From: Microbacterium sp. LWH7-1.2 | GTDB taxonomy: Bacteria > Actinomycetota > Actinomycetes > Actinomycetales > Microbacteriaceae | Direction: 5' to 3' | Length of the DNA stretch: 64,000 nucleotides | NCBI RefSeq assembly: GCF_038397755.1 | Contig: NZ_CP151637.1 | Span: forward strand, 2,976,001 to 3,040,000 | Shown: piece by piece, positions 1 to 13,334 of the stretch | How positions within the stretch are numbered: position 1 is the first letter of the stretch | Layout of the letters: the number at the start of each line of letters is the position of its first letter | The notes under the pieces: model-generated | What the model was told of the DNA's origin: nothing | The model's input: only the letters and a program-made list of their open reading frames with translations | Database searches by the model: none | Made by a program: the position numbers and the translations under genes

Positions 1-321
1 CCGCCAAGGTGATCGGACGGGGTTCATCTCAAAGATTTCTTGTCATGGTGTTAACGGCTGTGGAAACTGTGGACAACTGTCGCCTCATCAGTCGGGAGAC
101 GGAAACCACACACGTGTGAGTTGTGGAGACGCTCCGGAGAGCGGTCGGAAAGACGAATGACAAGAACTGTGGATTCCGCAATCCATCCACAGGTCTCCCC
201 CGCTCGTTCACAGCGGTTTCCGCAGCTTGGGAGAGTTATCCACAGGTTTTCCACACTGTGAAGAACCGAAATGATGGCCCTGCTCTCCGCGCGTGTCAAG
301 AACTTCTTCAGGCATATACAC
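1..321. other. oriC: Chromosomal origin region (oriC) with DnaA boxes
   Basis: This non-coding spacer lies downstream of dnaA, on the side where dnaN normally sits in actinobacteria; dnaN itself would be beyond the left edge. Boxes in TGTGGANNN orientation are at 59-67 (TGTGGAAAC), 68-76 (TGTGGACAA), 122-130 (TGTGGAGAC) and 168-176 (TGTGGATTC). Boxes in the opposite orientation are at 183-191 (CCATCCACA), 236-244 (TTATCCACA, perfect) and 247-255 (TTTTCCACA). A 10-bp palindrome CACACGTGTG is at 109-118. Dense boxes in both orientations next to dnaA are typical of a bacterial origin. The left boundary and the unwinding element cannot be judged because the region runs off the window. Confidence 0.85.
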
Positions 322-357
322 CGAGGGGCCCGCGCGTCGTCACGCACGGGCCCCTCG
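322..357 (-). terminator. Hairpin terminator of dnaA
   Basis: Perfect 11-bp inverted repeat CGAGGGGCCCG (322-332) and CGGGCCCCTCG (347-357), 18 bases beyond the dnaA stop codon. It separates dnaA transcription from the origin. Confidence 0.8.
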
Positions 358-375
358 AGGGGTGTAGGGGAGGAT

Positions 376-4164: not shown

Positions 4165-4683
4165 ATGACCACGTCCCCTGAGTACGCCCCTGTCGACGCG
4201 CGCGACGAGCGGGTCCCCGCGACCGTCGCCCAGCTCGAGGAGGAAGGCGACGTCGCCGCCGACTTCATCGAAGGCCTGCTCGACATCGCCGACATCGACG
4301 GCGACCTCGATCTCGACGTGCGCGCCGGCCGCGCCTACGTCTCGGTCGAGGCACCCTCCGGCGGATCGGTCGCCCTGATCGCGGCGCCCGACACCGTTCA
4401 GGCGCTCCAGGAGCTCACCCGCATCGCGGTGCAGAACCGCACCGGCCGCTTCTCCCGCCTGATCCTCGACATCGGCGGCTCGCGCGACGCGCGCCAGAGC
4501 GAGCTGACCGCTCTCGTCGACCGCGCGATCGCCCGTCTGGATGACGGCGCCTCTCAGGCGTCCCTGCCCGCGATGTCGAGCTACGAGCGCAAGGTCGTCC
4601 ACGACATCGTGGCTGAGCGTGGCTTCGTCTCCGAGTCCTACGGCGAGGGCGCCGACCGTCACACGGTGATCCGTCGCGGCTGA
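4165..4683 (+). CDS. jag: R3H/KH domain RNA-binding protein Jag (KhpB)
   Basis: Single-stranded nucleic acid binding protein usually found after yidC and linked to cell-envelope control. The 172-residue product lacks the long Jag-N domain. A KH-like region lies at about 25-95 and an R3H domain at the C-terminus (MSSYERKVVHDIVAERG, then SYGEGADRHTVIRR). The short acidic N-terminus is typical of actinobacterial versions. It belongs to the rpmH-rsmG operon. Confidence 0.93.
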   Translation: MTTSPEYAPVDARDERVPATVAQLEEEGDVAADFIEGLLDIADIDGDLDLDVRAGRAYVSVEAPSGGSVALIAAPDTVQALQELTRIAVQNRTGRFSRLILDIGGSRDARQSELTALVDRAIARLDDGASQASLPAMSSYERKVVHDIVAERGFVSESYGEGADRHTVIRRG

Positions 4684-4689
4684 GCCGCG

Positions 4690-4705
4690 CGTTTCGCGTG
4701 AAACA
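4690..4705. promoter_or_regulatory. parS-like site 1 (one mismatch)
   Basis: CGTTTCGCGTGAAACA matches the parS core GTTTCACGTGAAAC except for one A-to-G change. It lies between jag and rsmG and is the origin-proximal end of the parS array. The GTG inside it is also a possible in-frame start of rsmG. Confidence 0.6.
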
Positions 4706-4724
4706 CTGTGCTGAGCTTGTCGAA
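4706..4724. repeat. Short REP-like motif before rsmG
   Basis: CTGTGCTGAGCTTGTCGAAG-type sequence. The string CTGAGCTTGTCGAAG is a widespread intergenic repeat motif in high-GC bacteria, recognised from memory. A single copy is seen here and its role is unknown. Confidence 0.35.
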
Positions 4725-4730
4725 GTATCG

Positions 4731-5354
4731 ATGATCGAGATCGAGCAGGAACCCGCGGCAGCCGCCGAGATCTTCGGCGACCGCATCGAGGTCGCGCGGA
4801 AGTTCGCCGACGCGCTCGGCCGACACGGTGAAGAGCGCGGTCTGATCGGACCCCTCGAGCCGCCGCGCCTGTGGTCGCGTCACATCCTGAACAGCGCGGT
4901 CATCGCTCCCCTGTTTTCCGGCCGGGTCGGAGATGTGGGCTCGGGTGCCGGTCTTCCCGGGCTCGTGCTCGCCATCGCTCGTCCCGACGTCGAGTGGGTG
5001 CTGATCGAGCCGATGGAACGCCGTGTGGCGTGGCTCTCGGAGCAGGTCGAGTCCCTCGAGCTCGACAACGTCGAGGTGCTTCGCGCGCGGGCTGAGGACT
5101 GGAAGCGTGGCCCCGTTCTCGACGCGGTGACTGCGCGGGCCGTCAGTGCTCTTCGCACCTTGGTGCCGATCACCGCTCCCCTGGTCCGCGACGGCGGTGA
5201 GCTCATCCTTCTCAAGGGGACGAGTGCCACCAATGAGATCGAGGCAGCAGAGAAGCAGCTCCGCAGGTTCAAGGTGACGAACGCGCGCGTCGAGATCGTC
5301 GGCGACGGTCTGCTCCCCGAACCGTCACGGGTGATCCGAGCCACCGTCCGCTGA
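4731..5354 (+). CDS. rsmG: 16S rRNA (guanine(527)-N7)-methyltransferase RsmG
   Basis: SAM-dependent methyltransferase that modifies G527 of 16S rRNA (GidB). The 207-residue product from ATG 4731 shows the family motifs LWSRHILNSAVIAP, GDVGSGAGLPGLVLAIARP (SAM loop) and VTARAVSALRTLVP. An in-frame GTG at 4698 would add 11 residues (MKHCAELVEVS) but lies inside the parS-like site and REP-like motif, so the ATG is preferred. It is the last gene of the rpmH operon; the parS region follows. Confidence 0.95.
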   Translation: MIEIEQEPAAAAEIFGDRIEVARKFADALGRHGEERGLIGPLEPPRLWSRHILNSAVIAPLFSGRVGDVGSGAGLPGLVLAIARPDVEWVLIEPMERRVAWLSEQVESLELDNVEVLRARAEDWKRGPVLDAVTARAVSALRTLVPITAPLVRDGGELILLKGTSATNEIEAAEKQLRRFKVTNARVEIVGDGLLPEPSRVIRATVR

Positions 5355-5660
5355 AGCCGCCAGTCCGTGAGGCCGCCCACGCACGGGTGATCCGGCTCCC
5401 GATCGGGCTTGGTGCCGGGTGACCGGGGATGCGGTCGTCGCGAGATCTGGCGGAGTGGATCGGCGTTCACCGTGGACTTTGCGGCCGCGCACGTTGAGGT
5501 GAACCGCGGGCTGCTGGCAGCGCTGCGCGAGCTGGAGGCGTCTTGAGCACTCCCCCGATGAGTAACTACGGACCTTTGTACGTTGCCCTGCATGCCGTGT
5601 ATGGCGGCTTGGCTGTGAACGCGGGTCCGTGCGGATCAAGCCAGGGCGATGGAGCCGGCA

Positions 5661-5676
5661 TGTTTCACGTGAAACG
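5661..5676. promoter_or_regulatory. parS site 2
   Basis: TGTTTCACGTGAAACG contains the perfect 14-bp palindromic core GTTTCACGTGAAAC bound by ParB/Spo0J in most bacteria. Confidence 0.93.
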
Positions 5677-6332
5677 GAGCTGCGTCCATTCTCGATGGGG
5701 TCCCTCGAACAAGCGCGGCGACTCGCGTGTCCACGCATGGGCCGTGTTCGCCGTCCTCACCGCGTTCTCGCTGCCGGCTTCGCGGCCTCAGCAGCCGCCG
5801 GCGCAAGGCGCGGAGGCTATCCGTCCTTGCCCGGCTTCGCCAGCGGACGTCGCCGCCGTTCCCCACCGAGCCCCCGCGGTAGAGTCGCCGGCGGGTCGAG
5901 TGCTCCCCTGCGAAGGCGCTTCTCCGCATCCGCCTGTTCGATTCAACGGGTATCCGATGGAGGAGCCGCGATCGACTGCTCGAGCCGAGGCCAGAGTCGC
6001 GTACACGCGTGAGTCCTCCTCGCCGGGAACAAGGCGACCGGTGCTGGCGATGACACGTAGCGGTGGGAACGGAAGGGCTCGGGGTGAATCGCGTCTCCGC
6101 GAGCCTGGATGGTGAAGCGTGGGACATGCCGCTCATCGCGAATGGGAACATCGGGTCTTTCGCATCACCGCTGACTGCCGCCGCTACAGCGAAAGCGGGG
6201 TCTTCCCGGGTGTGGGCGCGCGGCGCAGACGAGAGCACGCATCGCGAGCCGCTGCGGGCCTTCAGGCTGCGAGTTCTGAGCCAGGTGACGCCCAGCACGA
6301 GCTGGTCGGGCGTTTCGGATCCGCAGTCACGG

Positions 6333-6348
6333 TGTTTCACGTGAAACG
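6333..6348. promoter_or_regulatory. parS site 3
   Basis: TGTTTCACGTGAAACG with a perfect 14-bp core, 672 bp from the previous site. Confidence 0.93.
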
Positions 6349-7111
6349 GTATGCCCTAGCTCCTTGATTTGACGCGTCTACCGCCGCCGTGCGGGTGGAC
6401 GACCGCGTAGGACGCCAAGTCGGTGCCGTTCGCGTGTTGCGGGCCTGTCGGTCGGCAGATCAGACTGGGATCGGGGTGGCCGGGCCCTCCGGCGCGCACT
6501 ATACCCATCTCGTTCATCGATCCCTTCCCTACCTCGCGCGGGAAACACTAGCGATTGCTCGAGCGGTCGATCGCTCACGCCCGCTGGTCATGACGACGTC
6601 TGCAGATCCGTTCGTGTGATGGAACTCCATCGGGGGTCGCCCCACGTGCATGTGAGCCGAGACGGTGGAGTCTAGAACGGCTCGCCTCAGCACTGCCCCC
6701 GAACCAGACGTTGACTCGGCCTCGCGGTTGCATCTGAGCCGGAACACGCATCACCCCTGGATGCGGACGGAAAGAAGTCCGTCGCGCTGCGGCGCAGATC
6801 GGGCTCACTTGGGCAACGCCCGGACTGCCCGGCGCTTCGCACCGCACCCAGCCGTGCCGGCGAACTCGCCTCGTCTATCGCTCTCCGCTGCTCGTTGCGG
6901 GGCAATCCGCGTGGCCGTTTGCACGCTCGGTTGTCGGTGACATTCCCGCGCTGGTGCAGGTCGCCCGCTCCCATGGCTGATCGGGGCGCGCAGGACCGCA
7001 GCGCGGGATCCGGCATCGCCCGATGCCGGGACGACATCTTCGCGCGTGGGGCTGTCTCGACTGGCGGCGCACGGCGGCCAAGAGTTTCCTGAACCCGCGG
7101 ATATGTGAGTC

Positions 7112-7127
7112 CGTTTCACGTGAAACA
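7112..7127. promoter_or_regulatory. parS site 4
   Basis: CGTTTCACGTGAAACA with a perfect 14-bp core, 779 bp from the previous site. Confidence 0.93.
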
Positions 7128-7587
7128 CCGTGAAGCACACGGTGATGTCGTGGGCCCCGATTGACGGGCGGTTGATTGCGCCGGTCGACGGAGGTCGATG
7201 CCCGATCACGGCGGTGGTCCTGCTCCCTGTACCTGAGCGGCCGTCTATGCCGGCTGAAGCATTGCCGCCTGCCGCACCGATGGTCGACGAACGGAGGACG
7301 TCATCCCCAGGAAGCGGCTTCGAGCTGAAGCCCAGCGCAGGAACCCGACCAGGGTCAGTCTGATCGCCGGCGCGATCCTCAACTCCATGCGGGGCGAAGT
7401 GTCAGAGTGGACAGTGAACGACGACAATTGGATCGGGCCGCATGGCCATCCTCTTTCAGCTCTCGACATCTTGGAATCCGATGCCGCCCGTCACGAGAGG
7501 ACGGTTGGCTTCGCCCGCCCGAGGCCCCGGGAATGCCGAGAGGGTCGAGGAGGCGGTCGACCTTCACCATCGGCGCGAGAACCCGCA

Positions 7588-7603
7588 TGTTTCACGTGAA
7601 ACG
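7588..7603. promoter_or_regulatory. parS site 5
   Basis: TGTTTCACGTGAAACG with a perfect 14-bp core, 476 bp from the previous site. It is the last site before the IS481 element. Confidence 0.93.
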
Positions 7604-7899
7604 TGGGCCAGCTGTCCCTGCTCTCAGCGATGATCGACCGGCTCGCCGCCGGCTCGCCAGTTCCGGGCGGAAGGTCCACACCCGGGTGGGATGCCATCGC
7701 CGATCCGCATGTCGCAGAGGTCTCCGCGACGGGAGCCCGTGGCGCGGGCGGTGCCCCGGGGGCCGTGGTCAGTACACGGCGCGGACCGTGCCTGACAGCC
7801 CACCGGCTTGACCAGCTCGGGCTGGACCGACCTCCTCGTCGAGGCCGATTCCCCACTCCCCTGTTGAGGGTGCAGCGTGATCTCGTGGCCTCGGCTAGG

Positions 7900-9000
7900 T
7901 GTGATGTCCAGGGACGTTGTTTCGGGACACGCCCGGAGTAGCTGAGTAGCGAAGGCCTCCCGGTTGTGAAGTGGAGCTGTCTAGTTCAACCGCTTCACGA
8001 ACGCAGGAGGCCCTCGTGTCCCGCGCTAACGCTGCTCTGACTCCCCGTGCCCGACTGCGCCTCGCGCGCCTTATCGTCGACGAGGGGTGGCCACTGCAGG
8101 TGGCAGCGAAGATGTTCATGGTCTCGACCGTGACAGCCCGGAAGTGGGCGGCCAGATTCCGATCCGAGGGGCCGGCGGGGATGTCGGATCGGTCGAGCCG
8201 CCCCCGCTCGATGCCTGCGAAGACGCCGTCGCCGGTTGTGAAGAAGATCGTGAAGGCCCGCTGGCGGCGTCGGCTGGGCCCGGTCCAGATCGCCGGTGAG
8301 CTCGGTCTGGCTCCGTCGACCGTTCACGCGGTTCTGGTGCGTTGCGGCCTCAACCGCCTCTCCGCGATCGACCGGGTCACCGGGGAGCCGATCCGCCGTT
8401 ATGAGCACGACCATCCCGGCGCACTGATCCACGTCGATGTCACCAAGTTCGGTCGCATCCCCGACGGCGGCGGGCACCGGTTCGTCGGACGGCAGCAGGG
8501 CGCCCGGAACAAGCTCGAGACGCCAGGACTGCCGCGCGGCAAGGACCACAAGCCGAGGACCGGCACCGGGTTCTTCCACACCGTCGTCGACGACAACTCG
8601 CGGGTGGCTTATGTCGAAGAGCACGACGACGAGCGAGCCGAGACTGCCGTCGGCGTCCTCACCCGCGCGATCGCGTTCTTCGCCGATCACGGCGTGACCG
8701 TCGAGCGCGTCCTTTCCGACAACGGCTCCTGCTACCGGTCCCTTGCCTGGCGAGACGCCTGCGCCGACCTCGGCATCAGACACAAGCGCACCCGCCCGTA
8801 CCGCCCGCAGACCAACGGCAAGATCGAGCGCTTCCACCGCACGCTGGCCGACGGATGGGCCTACGCGAAGTTCTACCCGTCAGAGACCGAACGCCGCGAC
8901 GCCCTGCCCGGCTGGATCCACTTCTACAATCACCACAGGCGACACTCCGCAATCGGAGCCCCACCCATCAGCAGGATCAACAACCTGCCTGGACATCACA
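7900..9000 (+). mobile_element. IS481-family insertion sequence, 1101 bp, intact
   Basis: Perfect 13-bp terminal inverted repeats TGTGATGTCCAGG (7900-7912) and CCTGGACATCACA (8988-9000), extending with two mismatches to about 22 bp. Both ends are flanked by the 6-bp duplication GCTAGG (7894-7899 and 9001-9006), matching the NCTAGN target preference of IS481. One full-length DDE transposase fills the element. Intact ends, target duplication and reading frame indicate a fairly recent insertion in the parS region. Confidence 0.95.
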
Positions 9001-9005
9001 GCTAG
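8016..9005 (+). CDS. IS481 family transposase
   Basis: A 329-residue DDE transposase. It has an N-terminal helix-turn-helix region (about 10-60, VAAKMFMVSTVTARKWAARF) and an rve-type catalytic core: Asp in HVDVTKFG near 140, Asp in LSDNGSCYRS near 235 and Glu in GKIERFHRTL near 271. The GTG start is set by AGGAGG at 8005-8010, five bases upstream; an upstream frame start would add 15 unlikely residues. The TAG stop (9003-9005) lies outside the element, in the duplicated target GCTAGG, so insertion into a CTAG target supplies the stop codon. Confidence 0.95.
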   Translation: MSRANAALTPRARLRLARLIVDEGWPLQVAAKMFMVSTVTARKWAARFRSEGPAGMSDRSSRPRSMPAKTPSPVVKKIVKARWRRRLGPVQIAGELGLAPSTVHAVLVRCGLNRLSAIDRVTGEPIRRYEHDHPGALIHVDVTKFGRIPDGGGHRFVGRQQGARNKLETPGLPRGKDHKPRTGTGFFHTVVDDNSRVAYVEEHDDERAETAVGVLTRAIAFFADHGVTVERVLSDNGSCYRSLAWRDACADLGIRHKRTRPYRPQTNGKIERFHRTLADGWAYAKFYPSETERRDALPGWIHFYNHHRRHSAIGAPPISRINNLPGHHS

Positions 9006-9175
9006 GTTCGGGTCTCCTCAGGTGCACGCGCTTCTGCCGGCGAGGGCGCGACGAGTGGCGGAACGGGTGCTGCGAAGCGGGGCAGGTGTGTCCCGTCGAA
9101 CGTGCGACTTGCGCCTAGGTGTAGCGAGGCGTTGGCAGCGGAGTGCAGTGACGCGTGTCGCACGTCCAACAGTTC

Positions 9176-9191
9176 CGTTTCACGTGAAACA
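9176..9191. promoter_or_regulatory. parS site 6
   Basis: CGTTTCACGTGAAACA with a perfect core. It is the first site after the IS element; removing the IS and one target copy would put it 481 bp from site 5. Confidence 0.93.
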
Positions 9192-9476
9192 TCGAAGACG
9201 TGGCTGGCGCTAGCGACTGGTGCGACAGGCCGGTTGGGCGGCGCCGTCCCGCGCTCGTGATCGCCCGGCTGGCGTCGATCACGCGCGCTCCGAGTCGGGT
9301 GGGGTGCTACGCAACGTCGGCTGCTCCAGGTCGCGTCACCGTGAGACACGCCGGCGTTGGCGAGCAGGGGCGGTGGGTTGCGTGGTGCGGTGGCCGCATG
9401 GCCGCATGTCCGCGTGCACCGGCATGGTCTCGTTGGCACACGTCGTGCGGCTGGCGTACATCGCCGAACGGGGCTC

Positions 9477-9492
9477 CGTTTCACGTGAAACG
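9477..9492. promoter_or_regulatory. parS site 7
   Basis: CGTTTCACGTGAAACG, a perfect 16-bp palindrome, exactly 301 bp after site 6. Confidence 0.93.
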
Positions 9493-9777
9493 GGCGAGAC
9501 CTGGTTGATTGGTCGGCGCAGGAGTCGAACGTTCCCCGCTTCGGGGATGCGTCGCCGGACGCGGGCCTGCCGTCCTCGCACAGTGCCGCGACGGGTTCCT
9601 GGACAGCCCCAGTGGGTTCCGGTGGAACGTGAGACACAATGGAAGTTGCTCGAGCGATGTCGCATCTACAGGAGCGGCCGTTTCGATATACCGCGGCGCA
9701 TCTGACTGTTGACTGCGCACCGACGGTGTGCGCTCGCTAGGGATCCGTAGATGACCGGGGTGCTCGCCCCCCGCCGA

Positions 9778-9793
9778 TGTTTCACGTGAAACG
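9778..9793. promoter_or_regulatory. parS site 8
   Basis: TGTTTCACGTGAAACG with a perfect core, exactly 301 bp after site 7. Confidence 0.93.
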
Positions 9794-10541
9794 AGCTCAT
9801 CTTCTCTCGGGCGATCACCTTTTTCGGGACGGTCGATGTGCGCCGTGGCCGGCGGACGCGGCTGGCAACGTCGATCCCGCGGCGGCAGGGCGATCGTACG
9901 CCATGCCACGTATACGCCGCAGCGACCGCGCCTGCCTACGAGATGCGCCGGCCTCGACTGGGTCTGCATCTTGTGAGCAGCACAACTCCCGCGCCCGGCA
10001 CCGTTGGTCAGGCCGCCAGCTACCCACCCAGTGGATCGAGCAAACGAGCTTCCACCTCGCGGGCACGACGGCGGTGACGATGTGAACGACACCGTCGGGC
10101 CGATGGCGGCTCAGCAGCACAATCACTCGCTCGGCACACGTGTTGCGCTTGGCCGGCGACGTCCGGAGGACGGCGGCCGACAACGTCCCGCCCCAGCACC
10201 GAGGCGACAAGGATGCGTCGAGCGGACCCTCATCTCCATGTCGAGATGCCCTGTGTGGCCGTGGAGGGGGAGGCGCATCGCGGGAGCGGACCGGTCGCGG
10301 AATAACGAGCGCTCGGACGCGAGTCGGCGTCACGGATTGGAAGGGCAAAGCAGTCTGCTCCACGTGATGCACGTGCCGCGGGCTGGGGTGTGGGGCTCCC
10401 CGGCACACTCCGGCGCCTCGTTCGGCGGAAGTGGGGAGTCGGCTGCCGGGTTCGCGCGGACCGCGAGGCGCGAGTGAGCGAAGTGGTGCGGGGCCGGAGA
10501 CGCAGCCTGCGGTGGCGTGAAGCCGGTGGAATCGAGGATGG

Positions 10542-10557
10542 CGTTTCACGTGAAACT
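10542..10557. promoter_or_regulatory. parS site 9
   Basis: CGTTTCACGTGAAACT with a perfect 14-bp core, 764 bp after site 8. Confidence 0.92.
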
Positions 10558-10630
10558 CCGAACAGATGCCGGCACGACGTGTGAAAGCGAAGTCGGTGCG
10601 CGTGCCGCAGTTCGCGCCTCCCACACCGGA

Positions 10631-10646
10631 CGTTTCACGTGAAACA
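10631..10646. promoter_or_regulatory. parS site 10
   Basis: CGTTTCACGTGAAACA with a perfect core, only 89 bp after site 9, the closest pair in the array. Confidence 0.93.
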
Positions 10647-11016
10647 CGGGCAGGTCAATCCCCTGCAGCGCGTCCCCCGCCCGATGCCGGGAGGGCGGTG
10701 CGTCGGGCAGTTCTCTCACTCCCGCCGCCGTCGCTCAGGATGCTGATCCTCCGACCTGGTCCTCTGTCGGGACGAAGGCGTCTTCGGGGGCGACGGGTCG
10801 GGCGGAGTCGGGGAGGACGCAGATCGCCCTCGCCACGGACGTGTCGCCCAGGGGCGCCCGCAAGAACCAGCACCCCGATTACTCGTTGGTTCGCGGGTAC
10901 CGGCACAAATCCGCATGGGTCCGCTTCGTCTTCAGGCGGCGGGTTGGCGTGCCCGATCGGGTCGCCCGAGGTTGACTAGGAAGGGTGGATCATCCACGCG
11001 GAACAGTAGGGAACGC

Positions 11017-12345
11017 ATGAATAAGTGGCTCCGACGGCTAGGGATGGGGGGAAGGCGGGATAGGGTGGAAGACGATGTTGAGCGGCTCGGGCACGGGGGA
11101 GAGTTTCACGTGAAACAACCCGACGAGATCGAGGCTCAGGCATCCTTCTCGTCCGATGAGCCGCCGACCGTCTGGACGCCGGAGTCTTCCGCAACGGAGG
11201 ACACCTCCACTGACGAGGACACCAGCGACGGCGAGACCACCTCGAACAGCGAAGGCTCCAGTCCCGACGAAGGGGTCCTTTCCGAGGAGCCCTCGGCCCA
11301 GGGCGACGAGGACGAATCGCCGGACTCCGACGGCGATGTCGCATCGGATGAGTACGCTGAATCCCCCCAAGACACCGCACCGCCCGAGGGTGACACCGTC
11401 ACGCAGGAAGAGGAATCCCCCATCGTGCAGCAAGACGGCGCAGCGCTCGCGCAGGACGAAGACGACTCGCCCATCGCGCGGGAGCTCGCAGACCTCTCCG
11501 CCCGTCGCAAAGCCCTCGAAGAGGCCGACGTCGAACTCACCGGGCGCACTCGAGTACTCACCGTCTCGAACCAGAAGGGCGGCGTGGGCAAGACGACCAC
11601 GACCGTCAACCTGGCTGCTGCCCTGGCTGAGCGCGGTGCCAAGGTGCTCGTGATCGACCTCGACCCGCAGGGCAACGCATCGACGGCGCTGGGAGTGCCG
11701 CACACCGCTGACACGCCGAGCGTGTACGACGTGCTCATCGACGAGTTCCCCCTCGCGGACATCATCCAAGTGAGCCCCGAGTCGCCCAACCTGCTGTGCG
11801 CGCCGAGCACCATCCACCTCGCCGGCGCCGAGATCGAGCTGGTGTCACAGGTCGCCCGCGAGCACCGCCTGCGTGTCGCCGTCGACGAGTACCTCACCAC
11901 GAACGCCGGAGAGCTCGACTTCATCCTCATCGACTGTCCGCCGTCGCTCGGACTGCTCACCATCAACGCGTTCACCGCCGCGAGCGAGCTTCTGATCCCC
12001 ATCCAGTGCGAGTACTACGCGCTCGAAGGCCTGAGTCAGCTCCTCGGGACGGTGCGGATGATCCAGAAGCACCTGAACCCGCGCCTGGAGCTGTCGACCA
12101 TCATGCTGACGATGTACGACGGGCGAACGAGACTCGCGCAGCAGGTCGCCGACGAGGTGCGTGCCCACTTCCCCACCGAAGTGCTCGACACGATCATCCC
12201 GCGGTCCGTGCGCGTCTCGGAGGCGCCGAGTTTCGGGCAGTCCGTCCTCGCTTACGATGGACAGTCGGCCGGTGCCATCGCATACCGCGAAGCGGCTGTC
12301 GAGATGATCCGGCGCGACAGCGCCTCGAATGAAAGGGGCGCGTGA
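11017..12345 (+). CDS. parA: Chromosome partitioning ATPase ParA (Soj)
   Basis: ParA binds DNA as an ATP dimer and, with ParB-parS, moves the origins apart. The 442-residue product has a deviant Walker A KGGVGKTTTT at about 187, LVIDLDPQGNASTALG after it, and IDCPPSLGLLTINAF. Unusually, about 175 residues precede the ATPase: a short basic start (MNKWLRRLGMGGRRDR), then a long Asp/Glu/Ser/Thr-rich, probably disordered stretch. ATG 11017 is preferred because GTAGGGAACGC precedes it; the frame stays open 34 codons further upstream. A parS site lies in the coding sequence (residues FHVK). The stop overlaps the parB start (TGATG). Confidence 0.95.
   Translation: MNKWLRRLGMGGRRDRVEDDVERLGHGGEFHVKQPDEIEAQASFSSDEPPTVWTPESSATEDTSTDEDTSDGETTSNSEGSSPDEGVLSEEPSAQGDEDESPDSDGDVASDEYAESPQDTAPPEGDTVTQEEESPIVQQDGAALAQDEDDSPIARELADLSARRKALEEADVELTGRTRVLTVSNQKGGVGKTTTTVNLAAALAERGAKVLVIDLDPQGNASTALGVPHTADTPSVYDVLIDEFPLADIIQVSPESPNLLCAPSTIHLAGAEIELVSQVAREHRLRVAVDEYLTTNAGELDFILIDCPPSLGLLTINAFTAASELLIPIQCEYYALEGLSQLLGTVRMIQKHLNPRLELSTIMLTMYDGRTRLAQQVADEVRAHFPTEVLDTIIPRSVRVSEAPSFGQSVLAYDGQSAGAIAYREAAVEMIRRDSASNERGA
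11102..11117. promoter_or_regulatory. parS site 11, inside parA
   Basis: AGTTTCACGTGAAACA with a perfect 14-bp core, read in frame as Phe-His-Val-Lys in the ParA N-terminal extension. Internal parS sites in the par locus are also known in other bacteria. Confidence 0.92.
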
Positions 12346-13334
12346 TGGCAGCGAAGCGCACAGGACTCGGCCGCGGAATCGGCGCACTGATCCCGACCAG
12401 CGAGCAGGCCGATGAGCGTCCGGCCGATGTCTTCTTCCCTCGTGCGGTCGCCGTGGCCGAAGCGGAGCCGTCCGTCGAGGTCGTCGAGCCCGACGGACAC
12501 GACGACCTCGTCGAGGTGCCCGGTGCCCGACTGGCGCACATCGACCCGCACGACATCGTGCCGAACCCGCGTCAGCCGCGTACGAACTTCGACCCCGAGC
12601 ACTTCGCAGAACTCGTTCACAGTGTCCGTGAGTTCGGCGTCCTGCAGCCCGTCGTGGTCCGGCTCAACGAGAAGGGCGACTACGAGCTCATCATGGGTGA
12701 GCGGCGTACCCGCGCCGCCCGCGAGGCGGGCCTCACCTCGATCCCCGCGATCGTGCGCGACACCGCCGACGAGCACCTGCTCCGCGATGCCCTCCTCGAG
12801 AACCTGCACCGCTCGGAGCTGAACCCCCTGGAAGAGGCCTCTGCGTACCAGCAGCTGCTCGAGGACTTCGGCATCACGCAGGAAGAGCTCGCCACCCGCA
12901 TCGGCCGCTCGCGTCCGCAGATCAGCAACACGATCCGCCTGCTCAAGCTCCCGATGCCGGTGCAGCAGCGGGTGGCCGCGGGGGTGCTCACTGCCGGGCA
13001 CGCCCGTGCGATCCTGTCGCTCGAAGACGCGGCGGCGATGCAGCGATTCGCCGACAAGATCGTCAACGAGGATCTCTCGGTCCGTGCCGCGGAGGCGGCG
13101 GCGAAGCTTCCGGATGCCTCCCCCACCCGTTCGACGAAGCCGCAGGCGGGTTCGCGCCGGGCACACCTGGACGATGTCGCGGGACGCCTGGGAGACCGGC
13201 TCAACACACGTGTGAAGATCTCGCTGACCGCCCGAAAAGGCCAGATCAGCATTGACTTCGCTACGATTCAGGACCTCAACCGGATCCTCGCTGAGCTCGG
13301 TGAGACGGAGTACGGAGCCCTCGAGGCCTCATAG
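12345..13334 (+). CDS. parB: Chromosome partitioning protein ParB (Spo0J)
   Basis: ParB binds parS, hydrolyses CTP to spread as a clamp, and acts with ParA in segregation and SMC loading. The 329-residue product starts MAAKRTGLGRGIGALIP, the usual N-terminal ParA-contact peptide. It has the ParB/Srx domain (about 60-150, with IVPNPRQPR and the nucleotide-binding GERRTRAA near 118-125), a helix-turn-helix (about 165-215, ITQEELATRIGRSRPQISNT) and a C-terminal dimerisation domain. ATG 12345 overlaps the parA stop. Its stop overlaps the convergent sigma-factor gene by six bases. Confidence 0.97.
   Translation: MAAKRTGLGRGIGALIPTSEQADERPADVFFPRAVAVAEAEPSVEVVEPDGHDDLVEVPGARLAHIDPHDIVPNPRQPRTNFDPEHFAELVHSVREFGVLQPVVVRLNEKGDYELIMGERRTRAAREAGLTSIPAIVRDTADEHLLRDALLENLHRSELNPLEEASAYQQLLEDFGITQEELATRIGRSRPQISNTIRLLKLPMPVQQRVAAGVLTAGHARAILSLEDAAAMQRFADKIVNEDLSVRAAEAAAKLPDASPTRSTKPQAGSRRAHLDDVAGRLGDRLNTRVKISLTARKGQISIDFATIQDLNRILAELGETEYGALEAS

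Follow-up and report, generated by a model that had tools for sequence, protein, structure and literature searches.

The window analysed here, 64,000 nucleotides from the genome of Microbacterium sp. LWH7-1.2, carries near its start an array of parS sites, the putative centromere of a ParABS partition system, around and within the interval between rsmG and parA. The genome is a single contig of 4,446,169 bases, and the ten perfect GTTTCACGTGAAAC cores of the window, all within 5662-11116, are every perfect site that it contains. A core with one mismatch (GTTTCGCGTGAAAC) was found at 4691. The earlier note on this DNA, made from the sequence alone, had counted ten perfect cores and one single-mismatch core, the last of them inside parA, and this count holds for 4691-11116. 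With up to three mismatches allowed there were 11 matches in the window, compared with a mean of 1.2 and a largest value of 4 in 100 shuffles; decayed copies, that is sites with two or three mismatches, were absent from the window. The only other one-mismatch site of the genome (G000 in our comparisons) lies 66 kb from the array. This lone site, at G000:C1:2914807-2914820, reads GTTCCACGTGAAAC, and its T-to-C change at position 4 was the most frequent single mismatch across the surveyed arrays (21/53).

The features of the locus are as follows; counterparts are those in G326, the nearest genome, whose parA core and parB are 96% identical to those of the window.

1..375, no strand: probable oriC region, with DnaA-box-like 9-mers at 68, 236 and 247
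4691..4704, no strand: parS-like site with one mismatch, at the jag/rsmG junction, an anchored position in many relatives
4731..5354, + strand: rsmG, the left border (Pfam GidB, 2.1e-44)
5355..11016, no strand: rsmG-parA interval, a spacer without convincing host gene
5662..5675, no strand: perfect parS, counterpart in G326
6334..6347, no strand: perfect parS, counterpart in G326
7113..7126, no strand: perfect parS, counterpart in G326
7589..7602, no strand: perfect parS, counterpart in G326
7900..9000, + strand: IS481-type insertion sequence (Pfam rve and LZ_Tnp_IS481) with inverted ends
9177..9190, no strand: perfect parS, opening a trio at exact 301-bp spacing
9478..9491, no strand: perfect parS, G326 counterpart with one mismatch
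9779..9792, no strand: perfect parS, third of the trio at 301-bp spacing
10543..10556, no strand: perfect parS, no counterpart in G326
10632..10645, no strand: perfect parS, no counterpart in G326
11017..12345, + strand: parA, the right border (Pfam AAA_31, 2.4e-58)
11103..11116, no strand: perfect parS, in frame in the parA start region, where it reads FHVK
12342..13334, + strand: parB (Pfam ParB_N, HTH_ParB and ParB_C, all above cut-off)

A ParB with N-terminal, HTH and dimerisation domains, an adjoining ParA-type ATPase and an origin-proximal parS consensus palindrome (given the inferred oriC position) are as expected of a chromosomal ParABS system. The parA and parB open reading frames (ORFs) are adjacent, with a 4-base overlap. 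ParA also matches the Pfam family CbiA. ParB matches the Spo0J structure 6sdk (3.9e-50), a homology from which loading with cytidine triphosphate may be predicted, and is 97% identical to ParB of M. ureisolvens HU12; the nearest named relatives are Microbacterium. The start of parA was taken as the ATG at 11017, with the longest ORF beginning at 10915; we think a GTG at 11110, inside parS, the likelier start codon. The 9-mers in the gap downstream of dnaA (1-375), which resemble the DnaA box consensus, suggest that oriC lies there; dnaA was recognised from its translation. With oriC so placed, the array begins about 4.4 kb from the origin and its last site lies at about 10.9 kb; the earlier note had put the start at about 4.5 kb.

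The interval between rsmG and parA measures 5662 bp, or 4555 bp after subtraction of 1107 bp for the insertion sequence (IS) and one target duplication. The IS is flanked on both sides by the 6-bp duplication GCTAGG, its transposase ORF (7971-9005) ends at a stop codon lying in this duplication, and the element is absent at the corresponding place in G326. We applied a codon-usage score trained on 41 window ORFs, transposase and parA included, with a median of 0.34 per codon. Among interval ORFs of at least 50 codons, the transposase alone scored positive (0.14 per codon), confirming the earlier statement that about 4.5 kb hold no convincing gene once the IS is removed.

The DNA between the parS sites turns over faster than the surrounding DNA. 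In the alignment with G326, spacer outside parS was 78.5% identical (2293/2920). The corresponding values were 88.6% at four-fold sites (4287/4837) and 95.1% in other intergenic DNA (4186/4401), where a simple ORF rule set the borders of the gaps. A further 1483 bases of window spacer (2590 less 1107 of IS) did not align. In aligned parS columns, 97 of 98 positions were identical. By order and block, nine of the eleven window sites have a counterpart in G326, one member being mismatched in two of the nine pairs; the position of site 4691 is occupied by a perfect core in G326 and in the related locus L001. With parS masked, the window spacer was searched directly against 85 loci, made up of the 80 named ones, G326 and four others, and G326 alone gave a match at E values up to 1e-3. 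A search of spacer 5355-7960 against 366 genomes of the genus, which scored at most two candidates per genome, gave matches in 79 including G000. Besides G000, long blocks were present in G326 alone, the remaining matches falling on the IS end or covering about 24-75 nt. Overall, the array spacers appear to be under no constraint at the sequence level.

The array is a feature of the genus as a whole. We compared 81 loci (80 and the window). The tree and the interval counts are based on the 74 with rsmG, parA and parB; L007, L015, L023, L027, L031, L049 and L055 were left out, as their fetched stretches contain no rsmG. Across the 74 loci, the same two genes border an interval that ranges from 237 to 7891 bp between rsmG and the conserved parA core and contains 2 to 14 sites with at most one mismatch. 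Two further single-contig genomes have distances of 7953 and 8734 bp. A quick tree of the three proteins, in which 15 of 71 inner branches are drawn open, places long intervals in the window's clade, in a M. testaceum-like clade and, singly, in L035; with a cut at 3.5 kb, the long or short state changes four times. L035 (7.3 kb) and L077 (0.7 kb) are tree neighbours with very different interval lengths. Longer intervals have more sites: over 73 independent contrasts, r was 0.74 and the slope on log scales 0.56. In a sample of 99 genus genomes drawn evenly and including G000, a perfect site was present in 96, with a median of 6 and at least 10 sites in 11. In 196 other genomes of the family (a sample of 199, three of which belong to the genus and were not counted) the median was 3 perfect sites, and 2 genomes had at least 10.

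Rapid turnover is a property of the expanded spacer. Close pairs with long intervals aligned over only 0-5% of the interval in seven cases (window-L001, L001-L003, L002-L006, L005-L008, L009-L010, L010-L011 and L048-L078), and for L002-L006 this was so despite a four-fold identity of 0.82. Other long-interval pairs shared more: 20% for L033-L038, 29% for L044-L028 and 61% for L017-L022. In three pairs with intervals of 237-299 bp, by contrast, 94-99% of the compared length aligned at 83-91% identity, with four-fold identities of 0.47-0.61. Since short intervals stay alike, the locus itself is not hypermutable; the expanded spacer is.

The arrays of many relatives contain tandem copies. With parS masked, direct self-repeats (E up to 1e-5, at least 50 bp) were detected in 37 of the 58 intervals of at least 600 bp, and in 26 of these 37 the two copies carry parS at matching places, each above the mean for randomly placed sites. 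Examples are L029, with six spacings of 150-154 bp, L037, L043, L050, L032 and L002. In the window, the trio at exact 301-bp spacing may be a trace of such a duplication. Sites in 22 long intervals are overall more evenly spaced than under random placement; in the window's clade this applies to 8 of 12 loci at p<0.05, and to the window, where sites are about 0.5 kb apart, at p 0.017. Even spacing may reflect selection or duplication. Over the 74 intervals, 422 sites were perfect, and 53, 11 and 8 had one, two and three mismatches, respectively, indicating that a site is, in most cases, either intact or lost.

The earlier note had also proposed that genes were lost from this interval and the space kept, and had cited two remnants. 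Neither of them helps. The "stray C-terminus" frame at 5391-5546 (52 codons) has no relative better than E 0.04 among 80 loci and is no evidence of a lost gene; the 13-bp repeat of the rsmG end does exist, at 5326 and 5382, but does not support gene loss. The proposal itself found support elsewhere. Intervals of sister lineages contain a gene, for a GIY-YIG nuclease (in L017 with a Pfam match of 4.8e-17), a protein of about 275 amino acids without Pfam match, a P-loop kinase or a diacylglycerol kinase. In 14 loci the GIY-YIG gene runs full-length in a single frame, and in L012, L013 and L022 it is broken; the first two of these three branch off at the base of the window's clade. It was undetected in the intervals of the window, G326 and L001-L011; on the window interval, the profile gave nothing at E up to 1. 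A gene that is broken at the clade base and undetected within the clade supports loss of the gene while the interval grew. According to the earlier note, ordinary genes in this interval of relatives would have argued against a dedicated island. This applies in part: sister lineages do carry an interval gene, but it still lies among parS sites. The island is real. No convincing host gene lies in it, its sites are unusually closely packed, and the surrounding clade has such an island too, with a sequence that is not conserved.

Hairpins of the form TCGATAC...CTACTC alternate with parS in L014, L016-L019, L021, L022, L025, L028, L029, L044, L050, L076, L131 and L132. The 74 intervals contain 89 hairpins, compared with 6 in 1.33 Mb of flanking DNA, and none of these intervals has hairpins unless it also has the GIY-YIG gene in intact or broken form. 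With the three broken-gene loci set aside, at least three hairpins were found in 11 of 13 intervals with an intact gene, and any hairpin in 0 of 58 without it. In six independent tree pairs on supported branches, hairpins agreed with the gene in 5.7 of 6 on average and were never opposite (sign test, p 0.03 to 0.06). Outside this count, L131 and L132 have the gene together with 6 and 7 hairpins in their fetched stretches. For hairpins situated within 60 bp of a parS, the edge most often lies 18-19 bp from parS on the right (8 of 19 cases) or 17-20 bp on the left (13 of 20), with hairpin orientation inverted between the two sides. No Rfam match was obtained at gathering score in L017, L029 and L050. 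The association has exceptions: L024 has the gene but no hairpin and L021 only two hairpins, and L138, from another genus, has three and L143 one, both without the gene. In the 99 whole genomes, a strict hairpin pattern was found in 10, nine of them with a GIY-YIG match and G003 without. A GIY-YIG match was present in 40 of the 99, and many of these are weaker copies away from parAB, including the one in G000, so that the gene family alone does not predict hairpins. Two strict patterns found no hairpin in the genome of the window. It is possible that hairpin and GIY-YIG gene form a nuclease-repeat pair living in the centromere.

At the right border, 60 of the 81 loci, all with parA, have a parS of at most one mismatch inside the parA ORF and in its frame. 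A leader (11040-11116) with the element TAGGGT/TAAGGT/TAGAGT, nearly invariant in the window's clade and its neighbours, precedes parS at the parA start. This leader is probably the parA promoter overlapping a site of ParB control, and the in-frame parS behind it suggests that ParB may autoregulate its operon. In the window's clade, ParA has a long, acidic, low-complexity N-terminal extension (window 11017-11560); in many relatives only about 41-68 codons of open frame precede the ParA core. A tie between array length and this N-terminal tail was considered and dropped, as several M. testaceum-like loci combine long arrays with short tails.

Taken together, we think that the locus is probably an ordinary ParABS centromere by function and an unusual variant in form, namely a ParB-loading array, densely packed and free of host genes, that expands through tandem duplication. 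The confinement of the ten perfect sites of the genome to 5.4 kb, next to genes of the ParA and ParB families, supports this, as do the conserved cores amid rapidly changing spacer, the mismatch spectrum, the tandem copies in relatives, the rise of site number with interval length and the even spacing. Two positions, the jag/rsmG junction and the parA start, would be anchored, and the sites between them would form a tandem-duplicating array. Selection would maintain the 14-bp cores together with their approximate number and spacing, while the intervening DNA would drift and be replaced almost freely. ParB is described as loading at parS and spreading over kilobases in the papers drawn on here (PMC7083940, PMC7022226). 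Every parS of the array would be expected to load ParB clamps that slide into the adjoining spacer, and since each site would do so, ten loaders over 5.4 kb are predicted to make one compact partition complex. The loading step is taken from established ParB biology, which includes the papers on cytidine triphosphate-dependent ParB clamps. The parS at the parA start would probably also allow ParB to control its own operon.

Several observations weigh against this explanation. The window itself has no recognisable tandem copies now, the 301/301-bp spacing being the sole hint of any. Self-repeats are missing from 21 of the 58 longer intervals, and 11 of the 37 with one lack a parS match between copies. 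Duplication by itself could produce even spacing, and the spacing tests were made on loci that share ancestry and are not independent. Two window sites have no G326 counterpart, and each of the two genomes has one decayed site. The figure of 97/98 profits from the anchoring of local alignments near parS. Matches with four mismatches number 68, compared with 17 in a reversed-pattern control, and this rise is unexplained. Finally, a Corynebacterium glutamicum strain with a single parS is reported to grow and divide like wild type (PMC7083940), so that ten sites need not be required.

Freedom from genes could itself be what is selected. Transcription would strip or block loaded ParB, and the interval would be kept free of it and long enough for a zone of sliding clamps. 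This agrees with the intervals of the window's clade, which measure 4.5-8.7 kb as far as the parA core, show little coding signal and are not conserved in sequence, with the long intervals in the M. testaceum-like clade and L035, and with another genus of the family that has a low-coding array in the jag-rsmG gap (L147, L144). However, sister lineages hold a gene inside the array, coding-like ORFs are present in the intervals of L003 and L010 within the window's clade, and a 414-codon ORF lies beside the sites in L143. Moreover, the keeping of parS sites also explains why the spacer is retained, because most long deletions would remove a site. We regard this explanation as plausible but on balance doubtful. 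A more elaborate version of the duplication scheme strikes us as somewhat more tentative still, and rather unlikely. It envisages satellite-like evolution in which tandem duplication creates new parS units while others disappear, the arrays having expanded several times independently; the nuclease would cut at or near the hairpins and drive duplication, or would be a parasite of the centromere, and the window array would descend from such a state after loss of nuclease and hairpins.

A neutral gap beside oriC that collects insertions and decays, with parS merely persisting, would account for the IS, for resident genes that differ by lineage and for the absence of sequence constraint. It does not account for the increase of site number with length on the tree or for tandem copies that carry parS, and the 83-91% identity of short intervals means that the gap is not a general hotspot of mutation or insertion. 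We consider it distinctly unlikely. Least probable by far is that genes or RNAs lie undetected in the interval, with parS among them as elsewhere. Chance open frames in G+C-rich DNA offer it candidates, but the transposase was alone in its positive codon score, Rfam gave 0 matches at E up to 1 in 4600-11100, a simple scan covering one promoter type found no sigma-70-type promoter- or terminator-like site in the interval, and the spacer is not conserved.

The array, then, which we read as a dense ParB-loading centromere, can be compared with known systems. C. glutamicum, also an actinobacterium, has ten parS in one cluster near oriC, nine of them intergenic and one in coding sequence, but they extend over 35 kb and lie 73 kb from oriC (PMC7083940); the ten of the window occupy 5.4 kb without host genes up to parA, from about 4.4 kb off the probable oriC. 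The Streptomyces origin island similarly has many sites beside oriC (11-65 per chromosome), but at a mean spacing of 5.6 kb in 50 kb, compared with about 0.5 kb here (PMC8743542). Pseudomonas aeruginosa has an origin-proximal cluster with fewer sites, four (PMC4368675). The window thus shares with clusters of the Corynebacterium/Streptomyces type the several origin-proximal sites, but not their dispersal among ordinary genes over tens of kb, as only an IS lies between rsmG and parA. Among the open papers listed by our literature searches, which did not cover the 2007 survey of Livny and colleagues, no title or opening part of an abstract gave an account of such a parS array, and the searches pairing GIY-YIG with palindromic repeats yielded no paper.

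Other arrangements were seen elsewhere in the family, where 20 genomes were located and 18 fetched; most of the 20 were chosen for high site counts and so do not represent the family. In the genus with arrays outside the rsmG-parA gap, L147, L144 and L143 (genomes G465, G525 and G385) have 17, 11 and 8 sites with at most one mismatch, mainly between jag and rsmG. Coding signal beside these sites is low in L147 and L144, and in L143 the 414-codon ORF is coding-like. In L134, L137, L139 and L140, from four further genera, several sites lie at or beyond the parB end. Within the 81 loci, L014 has a second parS array beyond parB (11041-13027), with eight sites of at most one mismatch. Genomes G370, G453 and G515 (genus g6), of 1.4-1.9 Mb, have nine perfect parS each, only three of them in the fetched parAB stretches.

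Regional centromeres of eukaryotes that are built from satellites consist of tandem units, turn over fast in sequence and are poor in genes. The present array resembles them in its fast spacer turnover and its lack of host genes, and 26 of the 58 longer intervals, though not recognisably that of the window, have tandem units that carry the binding site. Here, a conserved 14-bp core specifies the site, and no kinetochore or epigenetic mark is implied. For the species available for comparison in the literature, the sites are situated within or between ordinary genes. The present locus adds a probable bacterial centromere that keeps its binding core amid changing DNA, and it is this pattern that is puzzling in the centromeres of eukaryotes. 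The link between hairpins and nuclease, if true, would offer a testable route for array expansion. With intervals from 0.24 to 7.9 kb in one genus, these loci form a natural series in which site number, spacing and gene-freeness can be set against ParB condensation, SMC loading and segregation.

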